A stretch of DNA of 64,000 bases from Stenomitos rutilans HA7619-LM2 (GTDB lineage: Bacteria; Cyanobacteriota; Cyanobacteriia; Leptolyngbyales; Leptolyngbyaceae): the NCBI GenBank assembly GCA_019358945.1, contig JAHHIE010000029.1, positions 1-64,000 on the forward strand, in the 5' to 3' direction. This document shows, piece by piece, positions 53,659 through 63,818 of this stretch. A model generated the notes under the pieces. The model had not been told where the DNA came from, did not search any database, and saw only the letters and a list, made by a program, of their open reading frames with translations. The translations under genes and the position numbers were made by a program. Position 1 is the first letter of the stretch. The number at the start of each line of letters is the position of its first letter.

Positions 53659-54099
53659 TTAGCGCCTTAACACTTCCATTGTGATTGGGGACGTTTCCAG
53701 TAAACCAATAGACTTCGCAGCTCCCATTGAAAGGTCGATGATAACGCCGGGATCACCTAAACGATCGTTGATGCGGACAACCACTGAACGTCCATTTTTC
53801 ACATTCGTGACTCGCACTTGAGTTCCAAAGGGCAGAGAGTGGTGGGCTGCTGTCAGACCATTTGGATTAAACATTTCGCCATTGGCGGTTCTGCTGCCAC
53901 TGAATTCAGACCCATACCAGGTCGCAAGCCCACGTATTGCTTGCTCGGCTTTGGCTTTGGCTGCAACTGTAGTTGTAGTTGTAGCTGTGGCTTCAGCCTG
54001 AGTTTCGGCTTTGGCTATAGCTAGGTAACTGCAAATTGAACTAGCGATCGTAATCAGTAAGAGCAGATGGTGCAGACGTTGTTTTTTCATGAGGCTCAT
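53659..54099 (-). CDS. RlpA-like septal ring lytic transglycosylase / double-psi beta-barrel protein
   Basis: 146 residues from ATG 54099 (an ATG at 54090 is equally possible; the frame opens at 54171). The signal peptide is [22 protein letters not shown] short Ala/Thr/Lys linker precedes the RlpA double-psi beta-barrel with [35 protein letters not shown] and [18 protein letters not shown]; the catalytic-type Asp and His are present. No SPOR domain, so a short form. It acts on peptidoglycan in the periplasm. Confidence 0.88.
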
Positions 54100-54151
54100 C
54101 GTTATAACTGCAGGAACCACTCGCCATCCATTAGCAGATTGACAAAAGTAA

Positions 54152-54313
54152 AATTCCTGGTCAGTATACACGCCTGCTCAAGTTCTGAAAACCGAGTTTG
54201 GTGATTTGTCTGCACTCTATAACACGACTCGTTCTTGCTTTGCGGTGGGACTTGAAGAAGTACATCGAGTTGAAGGTGAATCGATTGAGATTGCTAGGGG
54301 CTGTCATCAATGA
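54152..54313 (+). other. open segment resembling a gene remnant
   Basis: A 53-codon open stretch without ATG ([16 protein letters not shown], then LSALYNTTRSCFAVGLEEV) ending in TGA at 54311. The amino-acid balance is protein-like, but no start or family is seen. It may be a C-terminal remnant of a displaced gene just outside the island edge, or chance. Confidence 0.2.
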
Positions 54314-54577
54314 CTCATACACATGACTTTCAGCAAGGGTTCCAGCCCTTAGCCTTGTTTGTGAGGACGGGCGCGGTAAGGCTGATACTCAAGGTTTTTG
54401 AGCTTAGTTGATGACGCGCCCTAGTACCAAAGTACACACAGCTCCAAATTTCTATCTCATTCTCGACTCTCAACAGCCTTAACTACCCCTAAAAATACTC
54501 AACACAAAAACAACATCACTCAGCAGAGAACGCTTGAAGCCTCTATATAACAAGGGATGTGCTTATTTCTCCTGAAA

Positions 54578-54623
54578 GCTGGTGACAAGACTCGAACTTG
54601 CGACCGGCTGATTACAAATCAGC
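54578..54623 (-). tRNA. 3' half of a tRNA-Thr(UGU) gene, probable attachment-site remnant
   Basis: On the minus strand the segment reads from the anticodon stem-loop (stem GCTGA, loop TTTGTAA with anticodon TGT, stem TCAGC) through the variable loop to a T-arm (GCAAG TTCGAGT CTTGT), the 3' acceptor strand CACCAGC and discriminator T. The D-arm and the 5' acceptor strand (expected GCTGGTG) are absent on the 5' side. So it is a 46-base 3' fragment and not a functional tRNA. Integrative elements that use tRNA genes leave this kind of partial copy at their distal end. Confidence 0.85.
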
Positions 54624-54944
54624 TCATCAACCCCTGCCGAATAAGGCTTACAGCCAACAAATTAGAGTCCGTACCCCAGTTTGTACCCCAAGGCTTGTTA
54701 AAAGCTGTAGAAATGGTACTGGACCCAAACCAGTGGCTCCTTGTGTGAAGGAAGAAGACTGTGATCCAAAAAGCTTGCCAGGAAAGGATTTTAAACTCAA
54801 CTATTTTTTCTGATAGCCAATTGATAGTCAAACGTACTCCCTATTCCTCTAATAATTCTTTGGAATTGGTAAAATCAAGCCATAAAACTAGAGAGACATT
54901 TTAGTTTAAAACCGTTGAATTTAAGGCTCTACTCCGACTATTCC

Positions 54945-55111
54945 TTAGAGGGTGTTTTAAAAGTCCAACTGGTAGTAGCAAATCGTACAGATCCCCCTAA
55001 ATTCCCCTTAGAAAGGGGGACTTTAAGGCGGGTTTTTCCCTTTTTAAGGGGGCTAGGGGGGATCTCTGAGTGCTTAACATCACAGCCAATCACTTTTCAA
55101 GCAGCCTCTTA
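54945..55111. mobile_element. MITE-like element, 167 bp, running into the stop codon of the next gene
   Basis: TTAGAGGGTGTTTTAAAAGT (54945-54964) and ACTTTTCAAGCAGCCTCTTA (55092-55111) are inverted repeats matching at 16 of 20 positions. The interior contains the GATCCCCC...GGGGGGATC palindromic block typical of cyanobacterial repeat elements. The last three bases of the element are the stop codon of the minus-strand DUF2779 gene. Confidence 0.65.
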
Positions 55112-56603
55112 GAGCGATCGGTAAATTTCTACCATTGCCAAAGTGTCTAATTGACAATAAGCACAGAGGTCATCAACCAGCCCTTGCTTCTCCGTTTGGT
55201 TTGTGCAGGCAATCATCGTTTCCCAAACGGTCTGTGCCTGATCGCCTCGCTGAATAGTTAAGGTTTTGTAGCTCAAGGATGGCACGAGAACTGGCAGAAC
55301 CTTTTTGATCGAAGTCGAGCCTCGGAAGTCAGGATGCTTGTAGTGATGCTTGAAGATAACTTCGAGATCCCACAGTCGGGTAGCGATCGCCTCCAACTGA
55401 AGCGCATAGGCAAGGAAGGTTTGAGCCAGTTTTCGCAGCAGGCTGGCTTCAAAAGATTGGTGGTAGACAATGACGGAACCAACAGGAGTAATGTCACTGG
55501 TTAGCGCGACAACGAGCGGCGGCCTTGGATCGGACGTGTCGGTGTGGAGGTATTCGCGATGTTCGACGTGCCCGTGTTCGTGGAGGACGTGGCAACTGTA
55601 CTGGAAGGGAAACTGCTCGTAGGGTTTTAAGCCATCAAATCTAGGGACGGCAGGGTTTTGTGTCTCAAAGTCAAAGAAGTGAATGGGATAGGTGAGTTCG
55701 GCGAGGCTGGCTGCGATCGCTGCTGTATTCACGGCAGGCTGATTGCTGAGAACGCTATCAACGTAAGTACGCTGGTTTTCTGACAGAGGGTAGTTGGGTG
55801 GCAGGTCGGCGGTCACGGAGTGTGTGCGAAGCACGTATCGCCAGCACTCTTTGAGTAAGCAGCGCGTCTTTCTTCTTCCAGTCCAGGCGAGGGATGGTGA
55901 AGATGGAGATTTCAGGGACATGCTGCCAGCAAGCTTGCGTGAACGGGCAAGGGTTGGGGTTCGCACAGTGCTTGCCGATGGCGATAGCCTGTGCGTCAGC
56001 ACGTATCGCCAGTGTTGGCTCCAGGTTCTCAGCTAAGGTTGCCCTGAATTGCTTCAGTCGCTTGGGTAATTCTGGCAGGAGGCAATCGACTTCTGCGGTG
56101 ATGTCTGCAATTAAAAAAAGGTCTACCAGATTGGGAAAGTAGCAAGTCTGAGTATTAATATGCATCAGCTTGGTTGCACCAATAGGTAACCCTGTCCCAA
56201 TCAAAACGTATTTTTGCAGGGCTAAATCCCACTGATGCTCATCTTTAACCTTGCTAGAGGATTTGACCTCAATCAATTCCCAGGTGCCCGCTGGAGTTTT
56301 CTGAAGAATGTCGCACCGAACGAAGAAGTCCTCAAAACTGAAGGCAGCTTCAAAAAGGCGCGAGGCTCCGGTTGCGATCGCATCTTGAGTAGCTTGAAGA
56401 GCCTCGTTTCCGTTTCCCACAATCAATTGCCCATTAGAAAATTGCTGACGGGCGTAATGCCCAACCTCTTCGCCCTGGTCGATGATGCGTTGCTGGGCTG
56501 GGGAGAGAGCAGTGGCTTGGTGTGGCTCCTGTACTTCCAACCAAAGTTTTTTAAGGCATTGCAGCCCGCTCATAAAGTTGGATTTTGTCAGGAGGGCAGC
56601 CAT
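55109..56603 (-). pseudogene. DUF2779 (RecB-like nuclease family) gene, frameshifted
   Basis: Two overlapping minus frames together make one DUF2779 protein of about 490 residues. Frame A (ATG 56603) carries LTKSNFMSGLQCLKKLW, WELIEVKSSSKVKDEHQWD (the PD-(D/E)XK E-x-K), and a Cys-rich CANPNPCPFTQACWQHVP. Frame B carries LPPNYPLSENQRTYVDSV, HFFDFETQNPAVPRFDGL, VYHQSFEASLLRKLA and YCQLDTLAMVEIY (RNase T/DnaQ-like acidic residues). The switch lies between about 55800 and 55845. A short unconserved insertion (coding for ASHTLRDRR-like sequence) sits exactly there. It is probably inactive unless the shift is a sequencing error. Family role: possibly phage defence or nucleic-acid processing. Confidence 0.8.
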
Positions 56604-57290: not shown

Positions 57291-57581
57291 ATGCTGAACA
57301 TCTCTCTTCCAGACCAGGTGCAATCGTTTGTAGAGGAGCGGGCGATCACGGCAGGCTTCAACTCTGCCAATGACTATGTTTATCACCTGATTGTGCGAGA
57401 GCAGGAACGCATCGCCCAGCAGGAACGCGTTGAGTCTCTGTTAGTCGAGGGTCTGGAGAGTGGAGAGCCGATCGAAGTAACGGCTGATTGGTGGGAACAA
57501 AAGCGGGTTCATCTTTCACTGATGAACAATCACGGAGTCGCGACTCAACTCGATGTAAGTGTGCTGGGAGAACAGAGCTAG
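57291..57581 (+). CDS. ParD-like (CopG/RHH) antitoxin, orphan
   Basis: 96 residues. The N-terminal ribbon-helix-helix (MLNISLPDQVQSFVEERA, GFNSANDYVYHLIVREQERI) is a typical cyanobacterial ParD, as is the toxin-binding tail SGEPIEVTADWWEQKR. The last 22 residues are not ParD-like and are encoded antisense to the 3' end of the DUF5615 gene. No ParE toxin follows, so the partner has been lost or replaced. Confidence 0.8.
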   Translation: MLNISLPDQVQSFVEERAITAGFNSANDYVYHLIVREQERIAQQERVESLLVEGLESGEPIEVTADWWEQKRVHLSLMNNHGVATQLDVSVLGEQS

Positions 57582-57869
57582 GATGGTTGGTAAGCTTGTC
57601 AAAAAAAGCCTTTCTAACTCTGAGTTTTTGATGTTCCCTGTTGTCACGAGCAGAAGTTTATAGGGCTGCTGCACGGTAAGAAAAGAATCGACAAAATCTG
57701 AGTCTTTGGTAATAACGACTCGTTCTTGCTGAATGGAAAGTGCATTAATGCTTGAATCTGGAGTCGCGTTTTGCTGGAGAAGTTCTCTGGTGTGGATGGT
57801 GTCATGTCCCGCCTCTTGAAGCAGCCGAGCTAACCGAACAGGAAGTTGAGCATCAACGAGAAACTTCAT
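57516..57869 (-). CDS. DUF5615 PIN-like toxin
   Basis: 117 residues of the DUF5615/Mut7-C PIN-like family: start KFLVDAQLPVRLARLLQEAGHD with the first metal Asp, VVITKDSDFVDSF with the second Asp pair, and LLVTTGNIKN. It is a predicted RNase toxin. The start codon overlaps the DUF433 stop (ATGA at 57866-57869), the standard antitoxin-toxin coupling. Convergent with and overlapping ParD by 66 bases. Confidence 0.88.
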   Translation of the reverse strand: MKFLVDAQLPVRLARLLQEAGHDTIHTRELLQQNATPDSSINALSIQQERVVITKDSDFVDSFLTVQQPYKLLLVTTGNIKNSELERLFLTSLPTILALFSQHTYIELSRDSVIVHQ

Positions 57870-58150
57870 GATGCCAGTTTGTGGATGCTTTTGACCTGGC
57901 TCAGGCGGGCAGCAAACAGGAGAACGGCAAAGATATCGTCTGTTTCCAAATCGTCGTAGTCAGTAAGGATTTCTTCAGTGGTCATGCCAGAGCTGAGAAG
58001 TTCAAGGATGAACTCAACCGGGTAGCGCAACCCACGAATGCAGGGTTTGCCATGACAAATATCTGGATTATGAGTGATGCGCTGCAATAAATTGTTTTCC
58101 ACGACTGACTCGTTGTTGGATGGAGTATTTGTACTGAGACGCGATCGCAA
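57866..58150 (-). CDS. DUF433 antitoxin
   Basis: Up to 94 residues. The conserved part begins at LLQRITHNPDICHGKPCIRG and continues RYPVEFILELLSSGMT, EEILTDYDDLETDDI and AVLLFAA. It is a winged-helix-like DUF433 antitoxin, usual partner of DUF5615. The true start may be inside the frame, since the first 20 residues are variable. First gene of the two-gene operon. Confidence 0.88.
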   Translation of the reverse strand: MRSRLSTNTPSNNESVVENNLLQRITHNPDICHGKPCIRGLRYPVEFILELLSSGMTTEEILTDYDDLETDDIFAVLLFAARLSQVKSIHKLAS

Positions 58151-58965: not shown

Positions 58966-61098
58966 ATGAGCGAAGAGTCTTCTGAAGTTCCTCAGCAATC
59001 ATCACAATCTGCTGCCAATCACATTTCTGCTGGTGGCAACGTTAGTATTGGAAATATTACACTGATAAGTTCAGCGGAAAACTTGTCGAGAGTAAATCTG
59101 CCTAACGCGATTACCTGTAAAGATTCATCTACTTTTATTGGTAGAGAACAGGAGTTGGAATTCTTGTGGGGTTCTTTAGAAAAACATCGCCTCGCTATTA
59201 TATCTGGGATGTATGGAAGTGGTAAAACTGAACTTGCAAAGCAGTTTATTAGGCAGTATGGAAGTGCTTGTTTGGGAGGGATTTTTTGGGCAGATGGAAA
59301 TAGTCTAACTGAGCAGATTGCTAATAGTTTCTTTACTCACCGAAAGAATTTTCAGAAGGATTTTATCTTTCTTCTTGTGTGGGACGATATTTCTATTAGA
59401 GAACACAAAGTACTACTGAAGACTTGGCAAACCCAGTTTGATGGCAATCTCTACGTTCTGGTTACGACTCGAGAACACCAGGAAGGTAATTTTGTCTGTC
59501 CTTTAGGTGGCTTATCTTTCGAAGAATCTTTACAGCTACTAGAGGCTTTTACTGGAAATAATAGAGTCTCAAGCGCAAGATTTTCTCGTCAATACGGCGT
59601 TGAAGAGAGACTGATCGAGAAACTGGGACATCTACAGTTGGCAATTGAAGCTATAGGGAAATTCCTATCGTACAATTCTAAACTATCTTTAAGAGATTTT
59701 TTAGAGCAAATAGAACACGCTGGATTAAGCCATCCAGCACTAATTGAGGAAGTCAGAATTCCACTAGAAGGTTTTTGGGGAAAATTAAGTGAATCCTCAC
59801 AAGTAGTTGTTTGTAAAGTAGGATTATTTCCTAATGGAGCTTCAAAGAAGATGGTTTGTAAATTATCTTCGAGCTCAGGATTTGCAGTATTTTCAGTAGA
59901 ACTGCTCTGCCGCTTTAATCTTGCATCTAAAACAAAATACAAAGCCGAAACACATTTTACAGTTAACCCAATAGCCAAGCTCTTTTTGGAAGAAAAACTA
60001 ACAGAGTATGAAGACCCTAATGAAATAGTTGAAGAAGTAATACAAGTTTTGCTTGAAGAAGCACGTAACGCGCGAGTCTATTGGACTTCCAAATCTCTTT
60101 GTGAAGATGCTATACGAATTGCTAATCAGTGGTCACTGAGAGCATGTCAAGTAACAGCCTTGCAAGCTTTAGCAAATTTAACTTTACGTACTGCCTTTAA
60201 AGAAACTAATAACCTGAGTCGTAGAGATTATTTAATATCAAGACGTTATTATGAGTCCGAATATTTGCTGAATAGCTCAAAAGAGTACTATTTCCAAGCT
60301 GAAGAAATACTTGCACAATGTGAGGACGAATTTCCCAGCTATTGGTATATCTGTTCTCTGAAGCTCTTCGTTTTTTTGTTTAGAAATACGCCGTTTGAGT
60401 GGGTTTTGCTCCAATTCTTTAAAGTTGTTCGTTTTTTCGTTGGATTATGGAAAAACGGACGGGCAGCTACTAAGTTTGTAATTGTAATTGCTGTCATATA
60501 TCTTTTACTTCAACACTATGACAAAATAGATAAATTAGTTAAGGATATTTGGTCTAACAATTTAGAAGAGGACACTCGCAAAGGACTTGATGACCCTTAT
60601 CTAGAAACTCCGCTACCGTCTCCTAATATTCAAGTATCTCCTGAAGCTCCAAAAACTTTAAGTCTTGAAGGTGCTCATACTTTGATTTGGTCTTATTTAG
60701 AAGCCAAGAAAAAGATTTATTCCTCTCCTTATGACGAGAAAAAAATTGAAGATTTGGCTGGGGGGAAATTCGTTGAAGAAATAAAGAAAAACCTCGAAAT
60801 CTATAAGAAAAATGAAGTCTCATTAAGCAGTTATAAAAATCTAGGATTTAACAAGAAGGATTTCTCCTGCGATAAGGGTATATGTGTTTTTGTCGTCGAA
60901 GTAAAGAGAATGCGCGTGGAGCAGGGGAATAAAAATCCTAAGCGAAAAACGACTTGTTTAGAACAGGGAATATTCAAGTATACGTTGCAAAATGAGAACG
61001 GTAAGTGGAAGATTTATGATCAGAAAGAAGTAACTTCTACTACTGATGATTTTCGTTGGCGTAGTAAAACCAGTGGTGGAAAAACTAAGCATTGCTAG
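58966..61098 (+). CDS. NB-ARC-type STAND NTPase (NLR-like) with transmembrane segment and ARC6/IMS-like C terminus
   Basis: 710 residues from ATG 58966 (AAGGAAG 8 bases ahead). Residues 20-33 (ISAGGNVSIGNITL) repeat the partner's motif. The NB-ARC part (about 53-330) has the sensing loop STFIGREQELEFL, P-loop GMYGSGKTEL (Lys87), Walker B FLLVWDD, sensor VLVTTRE and a GLPL-like LGHLQLAIEAIG. A winged-helix/helical region precedes a transmembrane segment at about residues 505-519 (FVIVIAVIYLLLQHY). The C-terminal 140 residues (LIWSYLEAKKKIYSS...YTLQNENGKWKIYDQ) look like the DUF4101/ARC6 intermembrane-space domain instead of TPR, WD or LRR repeats. AT-rich, unlike the chromosome around it. Confidence 0.82.
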   Translation: MSEESSEVPQQSSQSAANHISAGGNVSIGNITLISSAENLSRVNLPNAITCKDSSTFIGREQELEFLWGSLEKHRLAIISGMYGSGKTELAKQFIRQYGSACLGGIFWADGNSLTEQIANSFFTHRKNFQKDFIFLLVWDDISIREHKVLLKTWQTQFDGNLYVLVTTREHQEGNFVCPLGGLSFEESLQLLEAFTGNNRVSSARFSRQYGVEERLIEKLGHLQLAIEAIGKFLSYNSKLSLRDFLEQIEHAGLSHPALIEEVRIPLEGFWGKLSESSQVVVCKVGLFPNGASKKMVCKLSSSSGFAVFSVELLCRFNLASKTKYKAETHFTVNPIAKLFLEEKLTEYEDPNEIVEEVIQVLLEEARNARVYWTSKSLCEDAIRIANQWSLRACQVTALQALANLTLRTAFKETNNLSRRDYLISRRYYESEYLLNSSKEYYFQAEEILAQCEDEFPSYWYICSLKLFVFLFRNTPFEWVLLQFFKVVRFFVGLWKNGRAATKFVIVIAVIYLLLQHYDKIDKLVKDIWSNNLEEDTRKGLDDPYLETPLPSPNIQVSPEAPKTLSLEGAHTLIWSYLEAKKKIYSSPYDEKKIEDLAGGKFVEEIKKNLEIYKKNEVSLSSYKNLGFNKKDFSCDKGICVFVVEVKRMRVEQGNKNPKRKTTCLEQGIFKYTLQNENGKWKIYDQKEVTSTTDDFRWRSKTSGGKTKHC

Positions 61099-61152: not shown

Positions 61153-62353
61153 TTACTTTGTCGCTTCCGAATCGCCGTTCGCACAGTGTCTCCTTCGAGA
61201 GGCTCGCACCAGCTTCACTCGATACGGATCAGCATCCTTCTGCCACACGACCCGATGCCCCTTCAACTCAGCACAGTGGTTTTCCAGGCACTTTAGCCAG
61301 CCTCGCCGATTGCCAATCTGCTGCCAATCTTCAAGTAAACCCCAATCCTCCTCCTGCCGACTCAGTTTGGCAAACTTTTCGTAGCTGGGGTAATCGGGTG
61401 AAACCAGCAGATCCTTCTGGTGCAGCACAGGCGGATTGTCGTCTGGGTCATAGTCGCGGTAGTGGACGTGCAGATCCCGCAGGTCAATCTGCATACTGGT
61501 GTGCAATGCCGGGTGCGGGTCAGCATCAAAGTCTGGATAAACCAGATAGGTGATTTTGGGTTTGCGGCAGTGGAATTTGATCACGTTTGCTTCTTCGGGA
61601 CGACCGATCGTCCGCGACGCACAGCCTTCATAGAGGCGTAGCAGCGGGTCAAGGGTTTCGATCGCCGACACATGCACCCATAGCGAACCCGGCAGTTTCT
61701 TCCCAACCGGACTGTTTTGACAGCGTTCTGCCACCACTGCCAAATTGCCCAGGCTCATCAACATCAAATCGGCTGCCGTGCAAGCCTGCTGATAGCCACC
61801 AAACAGACTTTTGATGTCGGTCTGCACGACAGGCGCAAGTTCACGCAGTTTCGGACGATGACCAAAATGACTCAACGCCAAGTAAACCAGCAAATCCCCA
61901 CGACGGCGATCGCTGATGGCATCCCACTCTTGCGGACTCGTCGCCTGCAAGACGATTTGAAACGCCCGCCGCAGGTTGCCAAACTCAGCGCTGAGTGACT
62001 CGGTTTCAGGTAGTTCCTCCAGCGTCGGCAACCGTCCTCGCTCAGTGTAAAACGTCATCAGCGGTGCCAGCCGTTCCTTATAGTCCTCAAAGCGCTTATT
62101 GCTAAGTTGCACTCTGGGAACAGAAACGCGCGATCGAAACCGAGCAGCACGGAAACTCTGCGCCTGTGCCTCATCCTGCAAACACAAAGTAGATGCCCAA
62201 TGCCACTGGAACCACATCGACTCCCAAAAACTGATCGATGTAAAGCTTCAGTTCCTCCTGGTCGTAATACTTCTGAAAGGTATTGCGGCTTGTGATCATC
62301 CCGTCCCCATAAGCATCTGTCTATTCATTCCTCTGAGCGATCAACACCTGCAC
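61153..62353 (-). pseudogene. DNA phosphorothioation-associated methyltransferase-like gene, decayed
   Basis: The minus frame from 62217 to 61153 encodes the C-terminal two thirds of the family I know as 'DNA phosphorothioation-associated putative methyltransferase': RPEEANVIKFHCRKPKITYL, YPDFDADPHPALHTSMQIDL, DDNPPVLHQKDLLVSPDYP and KFAKLSRQEEDWGLLEDW. Its expected upstream continuation is found in a different frame (AYGDGMITSRNTFQKYY, ELKLYIDQFLGVDVVPVALG, IYFVF), so there is a frameshift near 62172-62182. An in-frame TAG lies at 62321-62323, before VQVLIAQRNE. The N-terminal SAM-binding part is missing. No dnd genes are nearby. It is a relic of a modification system. Confidence 0.8.
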
Positions 62354-62548
62354 TTATTTGCCGTAGTTGAGGTTGCTGCTGGCACCTCGATATTTCTGCA
62401 AGCCATTTCTAAAAAGACTTGCCAAAACTAGATCTTGAGCTAAAATGTAAAAAACGCAAACCGTTATAGAGGTAGATAGCAATTTTCACAATTTTAGATG
62501 TAGACTTAGATCGTATGTACTATCAAAGTCTTGACGAGGCTCAAAGCA

Positions 62549-62953
62549 ATGGATAAAAGCTTTAAGCAAATTCCGATGACTGAACTGAGGGTTAAGTTGC
62601 CTAAATTGCGACGACAGGTTCAGCTAGGAAATCTGCGATTTGTGACGACTCATTATGGTGAAGTCGCTGCCTATGTTCTTCCTCTAAGTGATGTTGAGGA
62701 TGTTTTGAATGAAGAGGGAGATCCCATTGTTAAGCGGTGGGAGGAGATGCCGCTCACGAAATTTCGTGATGAATTAACTAACGCATGGGAACTGTTGTTG
62801 TCGGGAACTGATTGTGTATACCTTACTTTCCACAATCGCCGAGTAGTTGCTTTTGTTAGTCCACGATTGACACGTTACTTGTCATTGCCAATAATTGGCA
62901 ACCCTGATCAAATTTTGTTCTTAACTACTGAATCCGAAAACTTCGTTTCTTAA
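62549..62953 (+). CDS. tandem Phd/YefM-like antitoxin (two copies in one protein)
   Basis: 134 residues from ATG 62549 (MDKSFKQIPMTELRVKL). The first half is Phd/YefM-like (FKQIPMTELRVKLPKLRRQV, RFVTTHYGEVAAYVLPL). The second half repeats the pattern (EMPLTKFRDELTNAWELLLS, VYLTFHNRRVVAFVSPRL). So it appears to be an internal duplication of the antitoxin DNA-binding fold. It lies 13 bases before the RelE-like fusion gene, consistent with a toxin-antitoxin operon. Confidence 0.7.
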   Translation: MDKSFKQIPMTELRVKLPKLRRQVQLGNLRFVTTHYGEVAAYVLPLSDVEDVLNEEGDPIVKRWEEMPLTKFRDELTNAWELLLSGTDCVYLTFHNRRVVAFVSPRLTRYLSLPIIGNPDQILFLTTESENFVS

Positions 62954-62966
62954 GGATTACTTGCGA

Positions 62967-63818
62967 ATGTCGTACAAGTTTGAATATGCCACCGAGTCTA
63001 TAAAGCAGTTCCTTTCCAATCAAAATACCTTTTGGGATGTTGAACTAGAGCATGAGTTGCAGCCTGTTCTCCAGAGGCTTAGAGATTTTGGAGAACTTGA
63101 AGCTGGTGCTAATGTGGGCTTTATGCCAGGTATTACGGAACTTGTGTATGAACTTCAGGGAAAAACTTTCAAGCTTGTATATACAGTCTCGGCAGAACTC
63201 CAAATTGTCAAGTTCTATGAGTGTTATGCAATGTCACATTCAATTGATTGGCAAATCGCGCTGGATGCGATGAGCGATTCTAGCGAGGAATATTATATTC
63301 CTCAAATTGGCGACCACAGAAAATTCTTGAAAGCAATTGATTTAATTAGTCAGAGTGAGATGAATCCGTGCAGTCTGGGATCTGCAATGGGTAGCCGCGC
63401 TAAGAAAGTCAAAGACATTTCTCGCCGAGGTTATTACTACAGTAGCTTTCTAGAAGCGCTAGGCTTGTTGGAGATCCTCAAAATCGACAGCAAAGCTCCC
63501 TGTACCTACAAACTTACTGCGAAAGGAGAATTAATTGCCAAAGCTCCTAACACAGATACGAAAGAGCGTCTATTTGCTGAGGCTTTGCTAGGCTTTTTCC
63601 CACTACAGTTGCTCATTGATGCAACTGCAAGGGATCAAAAGGAGTTGACATCAGAGCTGATTGGAGAAGTCATCCGTCAAACCTCGAAAGACGGTTGTGG
63701 TGGTACAACTAATCCCAGACGAGCTGGTTCGCTCAGATCACTAATTAACTGGGTTTCTCGAATGGCTGGGATTCCAATCTACCATCAGCTTTACATTCCT
63801 AACATTTATGCAGACTAA
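62967..63818 (+). CDS. RelE/HigB-like domain fused to a winged-helix/restriction-associated domain
   Basis: 283 residues from ATG 62967 (a TTG two codons earlier is possible). Residues about 3-95 resemble a RelE/ParE/HigB toxin fold: FEYATESIKQFL, then ELVYELQGKTFKLVYTVSAE. Residues about 130-210 look like a winged helix with a Lys/Arg-rich part (MGSRAKKVKDISRRGYYYSS, LEILKIDSKAPCTYKLTAKG). The last 80 residues end RRAGSLRSLINWVSRMAGI, a motif I associate with restriction-modification accessory regions. Its 3' end overlaps the next ORF by 11 bases. It could be the toxin of the upstream Phd-like antitoxin, or a specificity/regulator subunit. Confidence 0.6.
   Translation: MSYKFEYATESIKQFLSNQNTFWDVELEHELQPVLQRLRDFGELEAGANVGFMPGITELVYELQGKTFKLVYTVSAELQIVKFYECYAMSHSIDWQIALDAMSDSSEEYYIPQIGDHRKFLKAIDLISQSEMNPCSLGSAMGSRAKKVKDISRRGYYYSSFLEALGLLEILKIDSKAPCTYKLTAKGELIAKAPNTDTKERLFAEALLGFFPLQLLIDATARDQKELTSELIGEVIRQTSKDGCGGTTNPRRAGSLRSLINWVSRMAGIPIYHQLYIPNIYAD

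Follow-up and report, generated by a model that had tools for sequence, protein, structure and literature searches.

Insertion of mobile elements into the 3' ends of tRNA genes is a textbook route of integration. For cyanobacteria, the available portion of one survey counts 4 integrative and conjugative elements (ICEs) against 11 conjugative plasmids, with the ICEs confined to Cyanothece (PMC3158045). YonO-like proteins of cyanobacteria, encoded both in prophages and in main genomes, are noted in the consulted part of another report (PMC5467207), and the limited literature examined describes no link between a YonO-like polymerase and conjugation. As judged from its sequence, the locus presented here looks like the end of an element that is integrated in a tRNA gene and related to a family of conjugative plasmids with sliding clamp, clamp loader and QDE-1/YonO-like polymerase genes.

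The window, that is, the whole 64,000-nucleotide stretch of DNA analysed, corresponds to positions 1-64000 of contig C20 in a cyanobacterial genome assembly of 7.28 Mb and 119 contigs. A partial tRNA-Thr(UGU) on the minus strand, proposed in the first-pass annotation, lies at the place and on the strand described: the fragment contains the anticodon arm, the T-arm and the 3' acceptor strand, and lacks the D-arm and the 5' acceptor. Comparison with the intact gene shows an exact copy of its 3' part over 49 bp, at 54576-54624 (-), so that the notion of a shared block stands and its length is corrected from the 46 bp given initially. ARAGORN calls no tRNA in the window, and the Rfam tRNA model aligns to 54577-54637 (-) with 27.7 bits, the gathering score being 29, with 4 bases standing in for 15 consensus positions in the D-arm region. 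Very probably, a large integrative element resides in the tRNA-Thr(UGU) gene, and this fragment is its far attachment site, attR. Towards the chromosome, the gene closest to the core encodes an RlpA-like protein with a DPBB_1 domain match (53659-54171, -). A 130-bp intergenic repeat (54294-54424) adjoins the attachment site; the matches listed include more than 25 further copies in the same genome, generally 82-96% identical, and many copies in two same-genus genomes, G002 and G006.

A 33-base core pattern, with up to 3 mismatches, finds two sites in the genome, namely the window fragment and an intact tRNA-Thr(UGU) at C101:11380-11452 (-), and its reversed control gives 0 matches. The first-pass annotation had predicted an intact minus-strand gene beyond 64 kb sharing the core, and had named an integrase gene as a further feature to look for. 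Such a gene exists, on the same strand as the fragment and with both the shared block and the adjoining integrase, and it sits on another contig: C20 ends at 85257, and C101 is a separate contig of 14,017 bp. On the 5' side of the C101 tRNA lies hemE, which also adjoins the tRNA in all six same-genus relatives, and this side is therefore chromosomal. On the 3' side, a tyrosine integrase gene (L015:10030-11187, -) starts about 190 bp from the tRNA and encodes an arm-binding domain (PF12167) and a catalytic domain (PF00589), both above the curated cut-offs. A small helix-turn-helix protein, with a weak HTH_17 match, neighbours the integrase, and this side of C101 also carries type IV secretion genes, with a TrbI match and a VirB4/TraC-like ATPase, both below the curated cut-offs. 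Strand and flanks follow the order of a simple single insertion, which runs from the left chromosome through attR and the element to attL, where the tRNA is rebuilt, and on to hemE.

The two cores are accompanied by GGGGTAC tandem repeats with a 12-base period, two at C20:54671-54689 (-) and three at C101:11233-11263, which may represent arm-type sites bound by the arm domain of the integrase. In the whole assembly, GGGGTAC-N5-GGGGTAC occurs exactly near the two cores only; allowing one mismatch adds a single site, on contig C29, and the backward control yields 2 matches. The G+C content drops from 52.0% left of the fragment to 45.3% over the 30.7 kb of C20 that lie beyond the core. Together, the repeats restricted to the two cores, the mobile-element genes at both ends and the step in G+C support the initial reading of the fragment as the edge of an element.

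Other elements located in tRNA-Thr genes show the same repeat layout with a different sequence (GGGTGTAA, GGGTATC, GGGGGTAA and TGATCTAA). We searched 17 genomes, in addition to our own, for the core, and found both ends in 12, among them G018, whose tRNA is cut by a contig start. The ends were counted as matching when three or more tandem 7-mers of a genome's attL were also present in its own attR; by this measure they agree in 11 of these 12 genomes, and 9 have a tandem 7-mer at both ends; the remaining genome, G358, has both ends present and no repeat 7-mers common to them. When the attR ends were dealt out anew in 10000 permutations, the mean was 3.3 matches and the maximum 9, and none reached 11. 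Many ends also match those of other genomes, because related integrases often have the same repeat. In a single-base-shuffled control, 2 of 2000 pairs had any common tandem 7-mer. As for the genomes without an end pair, G287 has two copies of the 3' part and no intact tRNA was found in it, G255 has two intact copies, G116, G225 and G245 have one intact copy each, and the core pattern search of G033 gave no match. The attL of G225 shows no tandem repeat. In four elements both ends lie on one contig, at 14.7 kb (G040), 18.3 kb (G019), 30.4 kb (G332) and 67.2 kb (G276). At L208 (G287:C317), one of the 3'-part copies of G287 is preceded by repeats of a single kind and followed by an integrase gene, a layout resembling, by analogy, that at a junction of two elements in tandem.

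Since the two ends lie on different contigs, one may ask whether they belong to two elements, the fragment on C20 being the scar of an older one moved by rearrangement and the genes on C101 belonging to a later arrival. Rearrangement can indeed separate the ends of an element, because in G155 (L204, L219) the tRNA-Thr and its 3' part lie 621 kb apart on opposite strands with repeats common to both, this element apparently having been split by an inversion; moreover, contigs C8 and C90 of our genome hold further copies of the plasmid family. Against this stand the same repeats at both ends, found exactly nowhere else in the assembly, the lack of a third core copy, and a strand and flank arrangement that fits one simple insertion, so that we regard the two-element history as very unlikely. 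A still smaller probability attaches to the proposal that an old integrase gene ends in the repeats at 54671-54689, which would then not be arm sites. An open frame does pass through them into the tRNA core; however, repeats of the same layout flank the core on both sides, and their sequence varies from element to element and agrees between the two ends. An integrase tail at attR was dropped as a candidate on account of this layout on both core sides in many elements.

That the fragment is a tRNA pseudogene, or a chance duplication arising without integration, seems to us barely credible. The Rfam model does score it as a degenerate tRNA just under the threshold, yet the 3' part is sharply bounded and exact over its 49 bp, element genes lie on one side only, matching repeats accompany the intact copy, and the same layout recurs in 11 other genomes. 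The preferred reading, attR of an integrative element, suggests the following course of events. The circular element would have carried a core corresponding to a tRNA 3' end, and the tyrosine integrase would have catalysed recombination between this core and the tRNA-Thr(UGU) gene of the chromosome; the incoming core would have rebuilt a complete tRNA at attL, on C101, and the displaced native 3' part would have remained at attR with its chromosomal flank. The helix-turn-helix protein next to the integrase may steer excision.

Comparison with an island-free relative, which the first-pass annotation had also called for, yielded no empty site: the hemE-tRNA arrangement is kept in all six same-genus genomes, and the genes of the window's left flank accompany it in none of them. 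The site was sought with left-flank proteins and DNA, and the six genomes have no downstream ORF in common with one another at E up to 1e-15. On the contigs of G001, G004 and G005 only 1.2-1.5 kb follow the tRNA; for G001 and G004, the best left-flank homologues map to different contigs, and the stretches scanned there contain no tRNA.

Inside the element, the first genes after attR encode a RecB-like/UU173-family protein in two overlapping frames (55109-56603, -; below the curated cut-offs), perhaps owing to a frameshift. They are followed by a DUF5615 and DUF433 gene pair assigned by domain matches (57516-58150, -), whose function would be toxin-antitoxin-like, an NB-ARC protein of the STAND type identified by its domain match (58966-61098, +), a putative methyltransferase associated with DNA phosphorothioation (61153-62217, -), which covers only positions 165-478 of the 478 of the profile, and a gene with a DUF7226 domain match (62961-63818, +), preceded by a weak match to a Phd/YefM-like antitoxin (62531-62953). 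Beyond the window, C20 has a CBASS-type operon that encodes a phosphorylase-SAVED effector, a cyclase, a HORMA protein and a TRIP13-like ATPase (C20:64709-69238; L013:12709-17238), and it further encodes phosphorylase-STAND proteins, a predicted QDE-1/YonO-like polymerase of 1130 residues matching PF05183 (C20:75329-78721; L014:5329-8721), and a protein of 1828 residues that ends in a YwqJ-deaminase domain (C20:79628-85114; L014:9628-15114).

The remainder of the proposed element would be spread over two further contigs. The first 126-127 bases of C101 are common to four other contig ends and fall inside the secretion gene F7, of which query residues 21-553 are encoded at the start of the 43-kb contig C30 and residues 564-657 on C101. 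The starts of C30 and C101 carry an inverted repeat flanked by an 8-bp duplication, ACAATTTA, which is the pattern of an insertion sequence. Therefore, given this duplication and the two parts of F7, C30 and C101 were once one piece in which F7 became interrupted, and as a consequence of this insertion the element's own transfer is probably impaired. Between 31.6 and 36.9 kb, C30 has a helicase gene together with dnaN, dnaX and holA. No direct join between C20 and C101 was found, the first 120 bases of C101 recurring at four other contig ends, and a search for joins with the end of C20 gave two further matches only, at 78-79%. The G+C content is 47.1% for C30, 45.3% for the element part of C20 and a chromosome-like 53.0% for C101:1-11380. 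We infer that C20, C30 and C101 form one element. Several points count against the reading as a single integrated element, namely this value of C101, the break in the assembly between C20 and both C30 and C101, the lack of an empty site, the place of the polymerase gene and the lack of a relaxase or coupling protein in the scanned pieces (see below), and the unmatched ends of G358. Since the genes of C30 are plasmid-like, membership of the whole contig is suggested and unproven; if all of it belongs, the incompletely assembled element would measure about 85 kb or more.

The secretion genes keep the order F7-F6-F5(VirB4)-F4-F3-F2-F1-F8 in ten contigs, C101 included, among stretches chosen because they carry the polymerase or VirB4; a few of these genes run off the end of their stretch. 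Of 388 genomes of the class, 54 have the polymerase and 117 have VirB4 at E up to 1e-10. In a comparison covering the best 25 of 46 and the best 25 of 114 plasmid records, each of the 11 best by VirB4 match also matches the polymerase, with 83-99% of the query covered. In the plasmid pGLO7428.02, the genes for holA, dnaX, dnaN, an AAA ATPase and the polymerase come before those for secretion, and its type is conjugative, MOBP and MPF_T. In all 8 relative stretches that hold both genes, the polymerase gene is immediately upstream of F7 and in the same orientation; our own polymerase is on C20 instead, which could mean a rearrangement. The stretches of G002, G164, G170 and G188 carry a DNA polymerase A and a primase-helicase as well, identified on the G002 copies; at L183:3264-8403 (G002:C2), the DNA polymerase A and a primase-DnaB-type helicase adjoin a gene of the QDE-1/YonO-like polymerase family, with a sliding clamp gene further on.

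A second integrated case is found on a 6.8-Mb contig of G259, where the same secretion family occurs with a 46%-identical integrase by a tRNA-Phe(GAA). In our genome, C8 carries another copy of the plasmid family, with secretion and polymerase pieces 89-99% identical to relatives' contigs, and C90 a broken third copy. No relaxase or coupling protein appears among the proteins of the pieces scanned. In our reading, the element would have been conjugative.

The assignment of the polymerase is based on several observations. Our own protein has a PF05183 match at E 3.7e-7 and, with E up to 0.01 allowed, so do 21 of 25 relatives; the DFDGD motif is invariant in alignments of 8 and 25 polymerase sequences. 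Searching the sequences of solved structures with the polymerase as query gave no match. A structure model of a relative (mean pLDDT 65.2) has 19 matches at E up to 0.001, all to QDE-1 or plant RDR2 chains, with TM scores by query of 0.15-0.26; a second aligner, used with the same model, places QDE-1 first at Z 12.5, other RNA polymerases reaching 11-12, which amounts to a tie. The protein may have the two-barrel fold of this enzyme class. On cyanobacterial plasmids the gene is a regular neighbour of the secretion operon, where it is annotated as a hypothetical protein. The element seems to carry its own, predicted, RNA-making enzyme.

With E up to 1e-40, 152 of the 388 genomes of the class contain relatives of the C101 integrase. 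ARAGORN, run over 30 integrase loci, called 16 tRNA-Thr(TGT), 2 tRNA-Arg(CCG) and 4 tRNA-Phe(GAA), and no tRNA at 8. Among the top 16 relatives, 15 lie by a tRNA-Thr, and the match of the sixteenth starts 145 bases from a contig end. Compared with 16 relatives, the N-terminal arm part is 34-59% identical and the rest of the integrase 48-74%; this faster divergence of the arm would fit the idea that arm domain and repeats change together. When the alignment columns of the arm domain were tested strictly for residues that vary with the repeat sequence, two passed, which are too few, and we therefore claim no residue code.

We can also imagine, as a speculation that we think rather unlikely to hold, that the polymerase copies RNA off incoming single-stranded DNA and that repeats and integrase arm together act as an exchangeable address code. 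If so, establishment genes, including the integrase, would be expressed while there is still no duplex for the host polymerase to use, several elements could use one tRNA core without excising each other, and a conjugative lineage would bring its own transcription and clamp machinery.

Taken together, our findings extend to a chromosomal tRNA site the occurrence of a conjugation system that we otherwise see mainly on plasmids and that has RNA polymerase and clamp genes of its own. Where assemblies are fragmented, matching end repeats provide a simple rule by which the two ends of such an element can be paired. The integrase clade, in which a single tRNA core is combined with no fewer than five natural repeat sequences, offers a ready set for studying how arm domains read DNA. 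The newer parts appear to be the end-matching repeats across the integrase clade and the integrated form bearing the polymerase.

In line with tRNA-3'-end ICEs and islands, the locus combines a duplicated core, an integrase by the rebuilt tRNA, secretion genes and defence cargo; it differs from them in that the secretion module and the polymerase come from a family that, in this analysis, is found mostly on plasmids. The integrase shares PF12167 arm and PF00589 catalytic domains with the IntBPP-1 subgroup, as this is delimited in the consulted part of its description (PMC8138268), a placement made from domain content alone. The gene set holA, dnaX, dnaN and polymerase, and the order of the secretion genes, are those of pGLO7428.02 from Gloeocapsa PCC 7428, which is a 202-kb plasmid, whereas ours are on contigs ending at a tRNA attachment site. 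With QDE-1/YonO-like single-chain RNA polymerases, the predicted enzyme has in common PF05183, DFDGD and, as far as the model of a relative goes, fold matches to QDE-1 and plant RDR2. The YonO-like genes of PMC5467207 belong, in the portion consulted, to prophages and main genomes, whereas the gene of the family described here neighbours a secretion operon on plasmids.
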